This document shows, piece by piece, positions 19,896-54,671 of a stretch of 64,000 bases of DNA (position 1 is its first letter; every line of letters begins with the position of its first letter). The notes under the pieces were generated by a model. It saw only the letters and a list, made by a program, of their open reading frames with translations. It had not been told where the DNA came from and did not search any database. Source of the DNA: an uncultured Clostridia bacterium (lineage in GTDB: Bacteria; Bacillota; Clostridia; Christensenellales; Borkfalkiaceae); NCBI GenBank assembly GCA_944336975.1, contig CALVLH010000004.1, positions 50,846-114,845 of the forward strand, read 5' to 3'. The position numbers and the translations under genes were made by a program.

Positions 19896-19924
19896 ATTAT
19901 AATGGAAACCGTTGACAATGTAAA
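19896..19924 (-). promoter_or_regulatory. Promoter giving a leaderless transcript
   Basis: Minus strand: TTTACA (19919-19924), 17-base spacer, TATAAT (19896-19901). Six bases separate the -10 box from the ATG, so transcription should begin at the start codon. It overlaps the divergent promoter at 19912-19941. Confidence 0.75.
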
Positions 19925-19941
19925 GCGGAAAATGATACAAT
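19912..19941 (+). promoter_or_regulatory. Promoter of the mntP riboswitch transcript
   Basis: TTGACA (19912-19917), 18-base spacer, TACAAT (19936-19941). It lies back-to-back with the minus-strand methyltransferase promoter, the two sharing bases 19912-19924. Confidence 0.8.
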
Positions 19942-19944
19942 GAA

Positions 19945-20075
19945 TACCGTCATAGGGGAGTAGGCGGCTTTTTTCGGAAAGCGGTAAGATCCACAGATTG
20001 AGGGGATGCCCTCGGGTTTTACCTGAAACGGCGAGACTTATGTACGGTCTTTTTTCCGTACATAAGTCTTTTTTT
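19945..20075 (+). ncRNA. yybP-ykoY manganese riboswitch with terminator
   Basis: The leader has the yybP-ykoY hallmarks: P1 5' strand CATAGG (19951-19956) running into GGGGAGTAG, a variable middle with ATGCCCTCGGG, and GGCGAGACTTATG closing P1. The 3' P1 strand also starts a terminator stem (20036-20047 with 20056-20067), followed by seven T (20069-20075). P1 and terminator are mutually exclusive, so Mn2+ binding should allow read-through. The family is known to bind Mn2+ and to sit before mntP. Confidence 0.92.
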
Positions 20076-20123
20076 ATTTTCGCTTCGCGCCGCAAACGGG
20101 AGGGCTCCCTTCGGAGAATTGCT

Positions 20124-20693
20124 ATGTCGGTATGGGAAATCGTTTTGCTCGGGATCGCGCTTTCGATGGACGCGGTCGCCGTGGGTATGACCAACGGAAT
20201 GGTCGAGCCGCAGATGAGGGTGCGAAAGGCGCTCCTGGTCGCCCTGTTCTACGGATTTTTTCAGTTTCTGATGCCCGTTCTGGGGTATTACTGCGGCGCG
20301 GCGTTCGCCTCGGCGGTGGAGAAGATCGCGCCGTGGCTGTCGTTCGGATTGCTCGCCTTCATCGGCGGGAAGATGATCTTCGACTGTTTCAAAAAGGAAG
20401 AGACGTGCGCGGAGCCCGTCGGCGTAAAAAAACTGTTTGTGCAGGCGCTCGCGACGAGCATCGACGCGCTCGCGGTGGGGGTATCCCTCCTCGCGGCGTC
20501 CACGTCGGCGGGACTTCCCTTTTCGGTATGGCTGTGCGCGCTGACCATCGGGGCGATCACGTTTTCTCTTTCCGCGGGAGCGGTCTTCCTGGGCAAAAAG
20601 ATCGGCAACCGGCTCGCGGATAAGGCGGAGCTTGTCGGGGGGCTTATCCTCATCGCGATCGGGCTGAAGATCCTGATCGAAAGCTTCCTCTGA
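20124..20693 (+). CDS. mntP: Manganese efflux pump MntP
   Basis: The 189-residue six-helix exporter lowers cytoplasmic Mn2+. Two internal repeats are visible: A-L-S-M-D-A-V-A-V-G near residue 12 and A-T-S-I-D-A-L-A-V-G near residue 112; the aspartates form the ion path. ATG 20124 has GGAG upstream and lies 48 bases after the riboswitch terminator. The family, length and riboswitch context agree. Confidence 0.95.
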   Translation: MSVWEIVLLGIALSMDAVAVGMTNGMVEPQMRVRKALLVALFYGFFQFLMPVLGYYCGAAFASAVEKIAPWLSFGLLAFIGGKMIFDCFKKEETCAEPVGVKKLFVQALATSIDALAVGVSLLAASTSAGLPFSVWLCALTIGAITFSLSAGAVFLGKKIGNRLADKAELVGGLILIAIGLKILIESFL

Positions 20694-20734
20694 CCGTGCG
20701 GCGGACTGTTTTTTCAGGAAATTCCGCTTCGCTC

Positions 20735-20763
20735 TTGACATTGTTTCCGCCGTTTGCTATAAT
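20735..20763 (+). promoter_or_regulatory. Perfect-consensus promoter for the acyltransferase gene
   Basis: TTGACA (20735-20740), 17 bases, TATAAT (20758-20763), followed by a 50-base leader. Confidence 0.85.
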
Positions 20764-20813
20764 GTTAACGTCCGAAAACATGAAATCATTTAACAAAAGA
20801 GGGGATGGAGAGT

Positions 20814-22118
20814 ATGAAGAGTGTGAAGAGGTACGATTTCTCGCGCAGGCCGCCTCGGGCAAGCAAATTCTGGATGTGGATCGCGCGTAATTTTGCGATC
20901 AAGCCTCGGCTCAAAGGAAGGAAACTGACCGTGCGTCGCCACAATATGGACGGGATCAAGCCGCCCTATCTGTTGCTTGCCACGCACGCGAGCATGATGG
21001 ACTTTCCCGTCATGTACACGGCGGTGCATCCCTATAACGCGAACAACGTCGTCGCGATCGACGCGATCCGCGACGTGGGCGACTGGCTCATGCGCCGCCT
21101 CGGCTGCATCGCCAAGCGCAAATTCATCAAGGATTATTATCTCATCCGCAACATGAAGTATGCGGCGGACAATTACGGCGACATCGTCTGCGTCTATCCC
21201 GAAGCGCGTTATTCTCTGGACGGGTGCGAGTCCTTCCTGCCCGACTCTCTGGGCAAGATGTGCCGACTGATGAAGGTACCCGTGGTCGTGCTGAGGATGT
21301 ACGGCAACTTCGTGATGTCCCCGCAGTGGAACAAGGACGAACAGTATCTGCCCCTCGAATGCGATCTCGAACTCATCGCGACGGCGGAAGAGGCGCAGAC
21401 GCTCCCCGTCGAAGAACTGAACGCGCGTATCCGCAAGGCGTTCGAGCGCGACGATTATGCCTATCAGAAGGAGCGCGGGATCGTCAACGCCAATCCCAAG
21501 CGCGCGAACGGACTGCACAACATCCTCTATCAGTGCCCGCATTGCGGCAAGGAATTCAAGATGTATTCGGAAGGCACCCGTCTTTGGTGCGCCGCCTGCG
21601 GCAAGGGTTGGCAGATGACCGAGCTGGGCGAGCTGGAAGCGGAAACGGGCGAGACGGAATTTTCGCACATCCCCGACTGGTTCAAGTGGGAACGCGCCAA
21701 CGTGCGCAAGGAAGTGCGCGAGGGGACGTATCGCTTCGAGGACGAAGTCACCGTACATACGCTGCCCAACGCCAAGCGGTTCTACGATCAGGGGAAGGGC
21801 AGGTTCGTGCAGACGTGCGAGGGGACGTATCTCGAATGCAACGCGTACGGCGAGCCCGTCACGCTCGAATGGGCGGGGACGGAGCTGGAGAGTATCCACG
21901 TCGAATACGATTACCCGTACCGCAAGGACAAATATAAGAAGAATATCTTCGGCGACTGCCTGGACATCTCCACGCATGACGACAGCTATTGGCTGCATCC
22001 CGTGACGAAGCGCGACCAGCTCACCAAGATCTCGTTCGCGACGGAGGAGATCTATGCGCTCGCGCAGGAGAAGGTAAAAGAGGAACGCGCGGCGAAAGCG
22101 GCAAAAAAGAAGGATTGA
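20814..22118 (+). CDS. PlsC-like lysophospholipid acyltransferase with zinc ribbon and extra C-terminal domain
   Basis: This 434-residue protein has an acyltransferase domain in the first 220 residues with the H-x4-D motif (T-H-A-S-M-M-D) and an F-P-E-G-like Y-P-E-A-R-Y-S. A zinc ribbon follows near residue 245 (C-P-H-C-G...C-A-A-C-G), then about 180 residues of beta-rich sequence. The normal PlsC is about 200-250 residues, so the ribbon and tail are additions. It presumably acylates a glycerophospholipid or glycolipid at the membrane. ATG 20814 was preferred to 20805 because GAGGGG is 9 bases before it. Confidence 0.78.
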   Translation: MKSVKRYDFSRRPPRASKFWMWIARNFAIKPRLKGRKLTVRRHNMDGIKPPYLLLATHASMMDFPVMYTAVHPYNANNVVAIDAIRDVGDWLMRRLGCIAKRKFIKDYYLIRNMKYAADNYGDIVCVYPEARYSLDGCESFLPDSLGKMCRLMKVPVVVLRMYGNFVMSPQWNKDEQYLPLECDLELIATAEEAQTLPVEELNARIRKAFERDDYAYQKERGIVNANPKRANGLHNILYQCPHCGKEFKMYSEGTRLWCAACGKGWQMTELGELEAETGETEFSHIPDWFKWERANVRKEVREGTYRFEDEVTVHTLPNAKRFYDQGKGRFVQTCEGTYLECNAYGEPVTLEWAGTELESIHVEYDYPYRKDKYKKNIFGDCLDISTHDDSYWLHPVTKRDQLTKISFATEEIYALAQEKVKEERAAKAAKKKD

Positions 22119-22132
22119 GCGCGCAAACGCGC

Positions 22133-22161
22133 TTGACATTTTCATGCGGAAATGGTACGCT
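22133..22161 (+). promoter_or_regulatory. Promoter of the CaCA riboswitch transcript
   Basis: TTGACA (22133-22138), 17-base spacer, TACGCT (22156-22161, a weak -10). It lies just before the second riboswitch. Confidence 0.6.
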
Positions 22162-22167
22162 TTTCCT

Positions 22168-22292
22168 TGTTGAAAGGGAGTAGTCCGTTTCTGCGTCGCG
22201 GCAACATACCCCGGGAGCATCCCGTGTTGCGACGGTTCGTTTCCGAACGACAAGACTTTCGGCAAAGCAATTTGTCCGCAAGTCTTTTTTTT
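22168..22292 (+). ncRNA. Second yybP-ykoY-type manganese riboswitch
   Basis: The same hallmarks recur: GAAAG (P1) running into GGGAGTAG at 22173-22182, a GC-rich stem around GCAACA...TGTTGC (22201-22230), then ACAAGACTTTC (22250-22260) closing P1. AAGACTT (22252-22258) can instead pair with AAGTCTT (22280-22286) to make a terminator with a T8 tract. Calling it yybP-ykoY rests on the conserved GGGAGTAG and CAAGAC elements and the P1/terminator exclusion. Confidence 0.82.
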
Positions 22293-22307
22293 GCGGAAGG
22301 AGCGGGT

Positions 22308-23312
22308 ATGTTATATTTTCAGATCTTTTTGCTCGTTTTGGGGCTTGCTCTGCTCGTGAAGGGAGCGGATTGGCTGGTGGACGGGAGCGCGGGCGTCGCG
22401 CGCAAGTGCAAAGTCTCGCCGCTCGTCATCGGACTGACCATCGTCGCGTTCGGCACGAGCGCGCCCGAGCTTGCCGTTTCCGTCGCTTCGGCGATCGGCG
22501 GCTCGACGGACATCGCCATCGGCAACGTCGTGGGCAGCAACATCGCCAACATCCTGCTCATCCTGGGGCTTTCGGCGCTCTTCCACGATCTTCCCGTGCA
22601 AAAGAGCTCTTTAAGGCTCGACCTTCCCGTCCTGCTGATCGCGAGCGGACTGCTCGTGGGACTGGGGGCTTGGCAGAACTCCCTGCAATGGTGGGACGGG
22701 CTCATGCTTCTCGCCGTATTTTCGGCGTATATGGCGGTGCTTCTCACGCAGGCGCGGAAAGAACAAAAACTTCTGCCGCAATCCGGCGCGGAAGAGCCGC
22801 GCACGGAGGAAGCGGAACCGGCGCCCAAGGGAAAGGTCGGGCAGTGGCTTGCTCATATGAAGGAAAAGACGTGGTTTCTCGTCGCGCTCGTCGTCGTGGG
22901 ACTTGCCATGGTGGTGGGCGGCGGCACGGTGCTCGTCGACGCCGCCAAATATATCGCTTCCTATTTCGGCGTGAGCGAACGCATCATCGGTCTGACCGTG
23001 GTCGCGATCGGCACGTCTCTGCCCGAACTCGTGACTTCCGTCGTCGCCGCCGTCAAGGGGGAAACGGACATCGCGGTGGGCAACGTCATCGGGAGCAATA
23101 TCTTCAACATCTTCTTCGTGGCGGGCATTTCTTCTCTCTTCGCTCCGCTTGCGTTTTCCGCGTCGAATCTCGTCGATTCGCTCGTCGCGCTCGGCGCGGC
23201 GGCGCTGCTCTTCGCGCTGTCCCTGTTCCGCGGGCATCGCCTGGGCAAAGCCGCAGGGGCGGTCATGCTCGTTTGCTTCGTCGGATATTACGTCTATCTC
23301 TTCCTCGCATAG
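22308..23312 (+). CDS. CaCA-family cation antiporter (YrbG-like)
   Basis: The 334-residue membrane protein has two inverted five-helix repeats, each with the alpha motif: G-L-T-I-V-A-F-G-T-S-A-P-E and G-N-V-V-G-S-N-I-A-N in the first, G-L-T-V-V-A-I-G-T-S-L-P-E and G-N-V-I-G-S-N-I-F-N in the second. A charged loop (about 143-180) joins them. Relatives exchange Na+ or H+ for Ca2+. The manganese riboswitch upstream suggests that this one exports Mn2+ or responds to its stress (inference). ATG 22308 has GGAAGGAG upstream. Confidence 0.92.
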   Translation: MLYFQIFLLVLGLALLVKGADWLVDGSAGVARKCKVSPLVIGLTIVAFGTSAPELAVSVASAIGGSTDIAIGNVVGSNIANILLILGLSALFHDLPVQKSSLRLDLPVLLIASGLLVGLGAWQNSLQWWDGLMLLAVFSAYMAVLLTQARKEQKLLPQSGAEEPRTEEAEPAPKGKVGQWLAHMKEKTWFLVALVVVGLAMVVGGGTVLVDAAKYIASYFGVSERIIGLTVVAIGTSLPELVTSVVAAVKGETDIAVGNVIGSNIFNIFFVAGISSLFAPLAFSASNLVDSLVALGAAALLFALSLFRGHRLGKAAGAVMLVCFVGYYVYLFLA

Positions 23313-54505: not shown

Positions 54506-54517
54506 CAACAGGTAAAA

Positions 54518-54638
54518 TTTCATTACCGCAGAAGGCAGGCGCCGCAAGGCTTAATCATCGCCCGCTCAGGTAAGAGGAAGTTTTCGTTCGTCAACGAGAC
54601 CATAGCTCTGTACCCGTCTGCGGTATGGAGCTTTTTTA
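54518..54638 (+). ncRNA. L10 leader with attenuator before rplJ
   Basis: TACCGCAG (54524-54531) can pair with CTGCGGTA (54618-54625) to close the leader. Alternatively AGCTCTGTACC (54604-54614) pairs with GGTATGGAGCT (54622-54632), followed by T6, forming a terminator. The two foldings exclude each other. L10(L12)4 binding to such leaders is the known feedback control of rplJ-rplL. Confidence 0.85.
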
Positions 54639-54671
54639 TTCGGGTGCGGAAGCGCCCAGAGGAGGTTATGA

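Follow-up and report, generated by a model that had tools for sequence, protein, structure and literature searches.

Two yybP-ykoY-type leaders in front of mntP and a YrbG-like antiporter gene in an uncultured Clostridia bacterium, and complementarity between the metal-site loop and the antiporter start codon

The DNA studied here is a stretch of 64 kb (the window) from the genome of an uncultured Clostridia bacterium of the gut, which is assembled in 29 contigs with 1.7 Mb. On its forward strand it carries mntP, encoding an Mn2+ efflux pump of 189 aa (positions 20124-20693; PF02659, E 3.3e-48), and a gene for a YrbG-like CaCA antiporter of 334 aa (22308-23312; PF01699, E 1.6e-67), in which PF01699 matches two stretches, giving two Na_Ca_ex repeats, and which belongs to the YrbG-type CaCA family with 279.8 bits against TIGR00367 (cut-off 179.65). 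An earlier note, made from the sequence alone, had described a leader with the yybP-ykoY riboswitch pattern in front of each of these two genes, and both are present: aptamer 1 lies at 19943-20049 (+), 5' of mntP, and aptamer 2 at 22163-22268 (+), 5' of the antiporter gene. Very probably, these leaders are Mn2+-sensing yybP-ykoY riboswitches that at high Mn2+ turn on MntP and the YrbG-like CaCA protein, both of them Mn2+ exporters.

Two leaders of the yybP-ykoY type

Leader 1 has the L1 core GGGAGTAG at 19956-19963, a closing GAGAC at 20033-20037 and helix P2, and is preceded by a promoter-like site at 19912-19941 (+; TTGACA, 18, TACAAT; 11/12 in a consensus scan). The Rfam model RF00080, proposed in the earlier note as the check, did match this leader (19943-20074), with 33.7 bits and therefore below the 45-bit Rfam cut-off; the covariance model R1 described below gave 94.4 bits, leader 1 itself being one of the 21 rows of that model. 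The 3' strand of P1 is used again in an intrinsic terminator (terminator 1, 20033-20070, +) with a stem of 15 pairs followed by a T run. This terminator is contained in the best fold of the full-length leader, whose stability was equalled by none of 200 shuffled sequences, while for aptamer 1 folded alone the result is unremarkable, with 17 of 200 shuffles doing equally well. Leader 1 looks like a usual yybP-ykoY switch that controls mntP by antitermination.

Leader 2 contains the same L1 core at 22176-22183 (+), a motif that served as anchor in each of 38 antiporter leaders of the genus, and is closed by CAAGAC at 22251-22256, so that GGGAGUAG in L1 and a closing GAGAC or CAAGAC are common to both leaders. 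When leaders of every type were aligned together, GGGAGTA and AGAC were invariant over 24 rows, most of which had been chosen by this motif; this alignment had a poor structure and did not serve for a model. Against the assignment of leader 2 stands the test on which the earlier note had staked it, since RF00080 run over the window gave no match at 22168-22292, even at E<=10. At E<=5, RF00080 matched neither the leader of locus L021 nor any of the eight antiporter leaders tested from the genus, that of the window among them; in this test of antiporter and mntP leaders the model scored solely the mntP leader of L015, with 25 bits, and missed that of L020. The terminator-bearing leader 5' of the CaCA gene of L102 reached 22.9 bits, and 45 bits were never attained in the window, the leader region, nine antiporter loci or eleven further loci. 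Since RF00080 exceeds its cut-off in just 2 of 14 control genomes and also scores mntP leaders low or misses them, it is a poor judge of these leaders and not a valid test for leader 2. A conserved subgroup of the class escapes RF00080.

As RF00080 fails on leader 2, the model R1 was built from mntP leaders only (21 leaders of the order, no antiporter leader included). R1 matched leader 2 at 22163-22268 with 19.4 bits (E 0.0048), and at E<=10 its only matches in the whole window were this one and 19943-20049. Over 24 CaCA loci, again at E<=10, R1 gave 19 matches, namely ten mntP leaders (all rows of R1) and nine leaders directly 5' of a CaCA gene; these nine include all eight leaders of the genus that had been found by motif, that of the window among them, with E values from 3.7e-5 to 0.013. 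The CaCA leader of L021, from another family, was matched with E 2.1e-9. Over 92 loci, R1 also weakly matched sites at a distance from the antiporter start in L111, L114, L133 and L150 (E 0.012 to 0.68), and the leaders of L064, L067 and L068 were not among the matches at E<=1. The reverse model R2, built from eight antiporter leaders of the genus and ending 5' of the start region, recognised an mntP leader of another family that lacks P2 (L047, E 7.7e-12), while most mntP leaders were matched weakly. Each of the two leaders scores 94 (R1) or 104 bits (R2) with the model of which it is a row and 19 or 15 bits with the other, which bears out the earlier view that they have little in common beyond the core and are no recent copy of each other. 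Judged by sequence and fold, both are riboswitches of the yybP-ykoY (Mn2+) type.

The predicted aptamer 2 consists of P1 (22167-22176 with 22256-22265), P3 (22194-22203 and 22212-22216 paired with 22220-22234) and P4 (22235-22239 with 22244-22248). The fold of 22164-22266 has -38.8 kcal/mol, and 1 of 200 shuffles was as good. Covariation was assessed on all 38 antiporter leaders from the genus, that of the window among them, in an alignment that was fitted to the model, which favours the fold, and eight rows of which had built the model. Of 910 cells, 98.6% pair, and both sides change in 13 of 24 pairs; the covariation score was 0.362, compared to 0.191 for shuffled and at most 0.116 for slid alignments. 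Four of five covariation measures were reached by none of 500 shuffles and the fifth, the number of pair types, by 21. Thus, covariation backs the predicted fold. A four-way junction with P2 is missing from most of the 38 antiporter leaders. In 36 of them only 14 to 22 bases separate GGGAGTAG from CAACAT, and since this stretch also contains the 5' strand of P3, there is little room for P2; a clear extra hairpin is kept only in L183 and L186. In the 12 mntP leaders inspected, 22 to 31 bases separate GGGAGTAG from CCACA, and they include a hairpin. The antiporter leaders have thus retained the metal core, with the four-way junction reduced.

Loop L3 and the start codon of the antiporter gene

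The metal-site loop ACAUACCC of leader 2 (22204-22211, +), which is the unpaired part of L3 in the predicted aptamer, is the exact reverse complement of GGGUAUGU (22304-22311), which contains the start codon (ATG, 22308-22310). When A22203 is included, the complementarity extends to nine pairs, between 22203-22211 and GGGUAUGUU at 22304-22312 (+); the likely Shine-Dalgarno sequence GGAAGGAG lies at 22295-22302 (+). This match had been overlooked in the earlier note, as had the loss of P2. On the forward strand of the window CATACCC occurs once and GGGTATG eight times. In 69 long frames of the window, many of them certainly no genes, the first 30 codons contain 101 ATGs, none of which has GGGT in front of it.

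The motif is linked to the presence of the leader. GGGTATG was found at the start of 29 of the 38 leader-bearing antiporter genes and of none of 39 leaderless orthologs, which remained from 41 after exclusion of L228 (no tblastn hit) and G741 (start off the contig). The Fisher test gives p 1.2e-13, or 3.1e-12 if an inner in-frame ATG of L199 is included and the leaderless count becomes 1 of 39; kinship is ignored in both values. These counts use hand-corrected starts of L179 and L173, while the information per position was calculated with uncorrected starts: positions -4 to -1 hold 1.27, 0.96, 1.04 and 1.70 bits in the leader group compared to 0.06 to 0.32 in the leaderless group, and the flank from -9 to -5 holds merely 0.10 to 0.24 bits in the leader group. 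R2 stops short of the start region, so that selecting loci with it gave no advantage to the motif. The duplex of L3 with the start region has a mean of -12.2 kcal/mol, compared to -5.9 for leaderless starts, and the complementarity reaches 10 to 12 bases in 9 of the 38 leaders. When L3 reads CAUACCC, the motif is present in 28 of 32 cases, and with any other L3 in one of six (p 0.0014).

As to L199 (genome G723), its leaderless antiporter gene lies directly behind the end of an mntP-like gene and has GGGTATG at the second in-frame ATG, possibly as a relic of a lost leader.

From these data a mechanism can be proposed. Based on homology and on the ACAU kept in L3, we infer that Mn2+ would dock L3 onto L1 and stabilise P1, and that P1, as elsewhere in the class, would then prevent a possible terminator 2 (22253-22292, +). 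In the absence of Mn2+, the 3' strand of P1 and L1 would form this terminator, and the free L3 ACAUACCC would pair with GGGUAUGU and block initiation, as complementarity and conservation suggest; with Mn2+, both the terminator and the block on the start codon would be relieved. The Mn2+-contacting adenosine, at 22206, would pair with the U of AUG (22309). Ligand binding and blocking of the start codon by L3 would be mutually exclusive, so that no switching strand would be needed. We see an even chance that the ligand-binding loop itself is the translational repressor and that this evolved in one genus of uncultured Clostridia, on a mostly P2-less aptamer. For the full explanation, in which terminator 2 and the L3 block are both lifted by Mn2+, we judge the prospects to be just as evenly balanced. 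The coupling of L3 with the start would likely be a new variant of yybP-ykoY regulation.

The main competing explanation, which we regard as possible although rather unlikely, is that only the classical platform operates, with the 3' strand of P1 acting as terminator or anti-Shine-Dalgarno and GGGTATG being a by-product or kept for another reason. The window leader and that of its nearest relative (L158) have in their tails the same terminator-like hairpin, which in the window is an AGACUU...AAGUCU stem (22253-22285) followed by eight T (22285-22292), competing with P1 and L1. T runs were flagged in the tails of L056, L156 and L158 (in a second count, in four leaders), with a stem in front of the run in L056 and L158, and in L060 and L168 a long hairpin precedes five T. 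Pairing of the P1 strand with at least one base of positions -13 to -6 (probability >=0.8) is predicted in 14 of the 38 leaders. This pairing is the commoner in genes without GGGTATG, with a strong hairpin between P1 strand and Shine-Dalgarno region in 6 of 9 motif-less leaders (probability >=0.9) compared to 8 of 29 leaders with the motif (>=0.8; p 0.052), a hint that the P1-strand and the L3-start platforms may replace each other. On the other hand, the classical platform leaves unexplained why GGGT at -4 to -1 is conserved solely in leader-bearing genes and with little conserved flanks, and in 21 of the 29 genes with GGGTATG the Shine-Dalgarno region has no strong partner in the P1 strand.

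Several observations weigh against a role of L3 as repressor or against the second terminator. The earlier note had described P1-competing terminators in both leaders, and a possible one follows the closing element in each; terminator 2 appears in the centroid fold of the whole leader, is missing from the minimum-energy fold and was not listed by a simple terminator scan of the window. Nine of the 38 leaders lack the motif (L060, L161, L164, L165, L166, L168, L169, L173 and L183), and the five-T hairpins of L060 and L168, in which the P1 strand pairs with the Shine-Dalgarno region, are perhaps terminators. No compensating two-sided change of the L3-start pair was seen among the 38 leaders, and in 18 of them another 12-mer of the aptamer pairs with the start region as well as L3 or better. 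The proposed pairing is a pseudoknot, outside the scoring of the folding tools used. In the sister genus, the leaders (L064, L066-L068) carry what reads as terminator-like hairpins, and the genes start without GGGTATG. In an antiporter tree of 37 leader-bearing and 21 leaderless rows, with the bootstrap not settled, the leader was gained or lost at least 11 times, four of these changes being forced by well-supported branches; such branches provide only four independent pairs, of which a mean of 3.6 have motif and leader changing together and none has them changing in opposite directions (p 0.125).

Distribution of the leader and neighbouring features

Genome scans with R2 were carried out with strict filters, three genomes being counted in both sets. 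At E<=0.01, R2 found matches in 16 of the 297 genomes scanned for the order and in 5 of the 391 for the class. In the 17 scan loci (L057-L073) the downstream gene encodes a CaCA protein in nine (L057-L060, L064, L066-L068, L072) and MntP in four (L061-L063, L069), and it is unclassified in L070, L071 and L073. A leader found by R2 in L065 (genome G254, 1501-1614) lies 5' of a frame whose translation, by reading, resembles a P-type cation ATPase. A survey of CaCA genes, with 80 loci retained out of 232 from named genomes, found a leader within 450 bases in eight: six of the kind of this genus, L102 (Clostridiaceae bacterium 14S0207) and L124 (uncultured Clostridia bacterium); in the other 72, neither the motif nor R2 found one within this distance. 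Within the genus, the antiporter is present in 79 of 103 genomes (E<=1e-30), and R2 at E<=0.001 matches 39 of the 103, with 38 antiporter leaders and one leader, in G259, on mntP. The antiporter gene lies near mntP (<=1.7 kb) in 15 of 19 genomes having it, within 300 bases in 11 and at 1.3 to 1.7 kb in four; in three of the remaining genomes it is on a different contig, and one has no mntP match. The best public matches to the antiporter of the window (loci L074-L082) have 66 to 80% identity and come from uncultured Clostridia or Firmicutes, eight of the nine bearing the name Lapin.

In the window, mntP and the antiporter gene are separated by an acyltransferase-like gene (20805-22118; PF01553), which has its own promoter-like site at 20735-20763. 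A possible promoter of leader 2 with a weak -10 (22133-22161, +; TTGACA, 17, TACGCT) was recognised by reading the sequence and is absent from the list of the consensus scan. Two ABC exporter genes and one ClC-type gene lie 3' of the antiporter gene. Elsewhere in the window, at 54508-54646, RF00557 detects a ribosomal protein L10 leader with 47 bits (cut-off 44).

Further observations concern mntP leaders. The Rfam family SSRC10 (Streptococcus sRNA 10) matches that of the window at 19959-20075 with 34.2 bits (cut-off 56) and that of L015 with 30.8 bits, and SSRC10 may perhaps be a yybP-ykoY leader filed separately. The mntP leader of the congener G001 (L044, 2131-2290, reverse strand) has, by reading, a single GGGAGTAG and a single GAGAC, yet two tandem P3/L3 arms, and is thus half-way to a tandem Mn2+ riboswitch; the absence of such tandems is called surprising in the review PMC9481103. 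In three congeners (L031, L034, L038) about 470 to 530 bases separate the mntP aptamer from mntP, which makes it questionable whether the switch still works on mntP there.

Ligand, antiporter function and known systems

Earlier work has described this class of riboswitch together with its Mn2+ site and the P1 switch helix (PMC6754395, PMC11087558), and in the switch of X. oryzae the Mn2+-contacting A48 lies in ACAU (PMC6754395). This adenosine has its counterpart in the ACAU at 22204-22207 of leader 2, if the register relative to A48 is as we assume, and CAACAT is conserved in all 38 antiporter leaders. As to the protein, its closest solved sequence is NCX_Mj; comparing the ion-site residues by eye, the position of E54 in the first repeat and GTSLPE in the second are kept, and the position of D240 is occupied by N. 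In Bordetella pertussis, the CaCA protein BP3410 sits behind an Mn-responsive yybP-ykoY riboswitch, and cells lacking a working BP3410 contain about 5-fold more Mn (PMC8546581). From this precedent, the riboswitch and the nearness to mntP, we infer that the antiporter of the window exports Mn2+. The earlier note had reasoned from Mn2+ control to Mn2+ transport, and with BP3410 as analogue this is sound; as a target of the Mn2+ riboswitch, however, a CaCA antiporter is already known and not new, being also mentioned in the review PMC9936198, and Vibrio vulnificus yrbG is predicted by RegPrecise to be under yybP-ykoY control (PMC13274385). The window adds a further CaCA protein that carries a Ca2+/Na+ antiporter annotation and is probably an Mn2+ exporter, and the earlier interpretation as a whole is supported in part.

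That annotation could also be taken literally: leader 2 might be a variant of yybP with a different divalent ion as ligand, e.g. Ca2+, and the antiporter would then export that ion. Variants of this kind are suspected (Sherlock and Breaker, PMC7266159), the mgtA switch of S. pneumoniae is reported to bind Ca2+ too (PMC9495176, citing Martin 2019), and P2 has been lost in most of the leaders. We nevertheless consider this improbable, since the ACAU with the Mn2+-contacting adenosine is retained in 38 of 38 leaders, the gene is near mntP in 15 of 19 genomes and the tested Bordetella homologue exports Mn2+. That leader 2 is a chance look-alike, as the silence of RF00080 at E<=10 might suggest, can practically be dismissed, since it is refuted, as far as sequence allows, by the independent model R1, by covariation across the 38 leaders and by comparable leaders that precede CaCA genes in other genera.

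If L3 indeed acts as the repressor, sensor loop and repressor would be the same eight nucleotides, a very simple coupling of ligand binding to translation, which would be unlike the P1 switch helix described for the class and would show that the platform of a riboswitch can change while the ligand site stays fixed. Riboswitches commonly act by hiding the ribosome site or the start codon (PMC7266159), and E. coli mntP is under translational control with a hidden ribosome site (PMC11647493). A pairing of L3 with the start was not found in literature searches for riboswitches with YrbG, CaCA or Ca antiporters and for start-codon pairing, which surveyed the literature in part.

Compared with known systems, S. 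pneumoniae mgtA shares a yybP-ykoY riboswitch on a Ca2+/Mn2+ transporter, described as a three-way junction (PMC9495176), and differs in that its target is a P-type ATPase. With V. vulnificus, the comparison is by gene and with a prediction only, and yrbG is the common target (PMC13274385). A parallel in the protein is BP3410 (Capek 2021), a CaCA (YRBG) protein that lowers cell Mn and sits behind an Mn2+-responsive yybP-ykoY switch; its leader, in contrast, has a good Rfam score (E 8.5e-15) and is described as stopping transcription early without Mn, and pairing of L3 with the start is not described in the covered parts of PMC8546581. With the RF00080 class as a whole, the antiporter leader shares P1, GGGAGTAG in L1, the closing GAGAC or CAAGAC, ACAU in L3, a putative P1-competing terminator and a probable metal-exporter gene downstream, while it differs in being unmatched by RF00080, in the absence of P2 in most congeners, and in an L3 that runs on as CCC, complementary to the start region.

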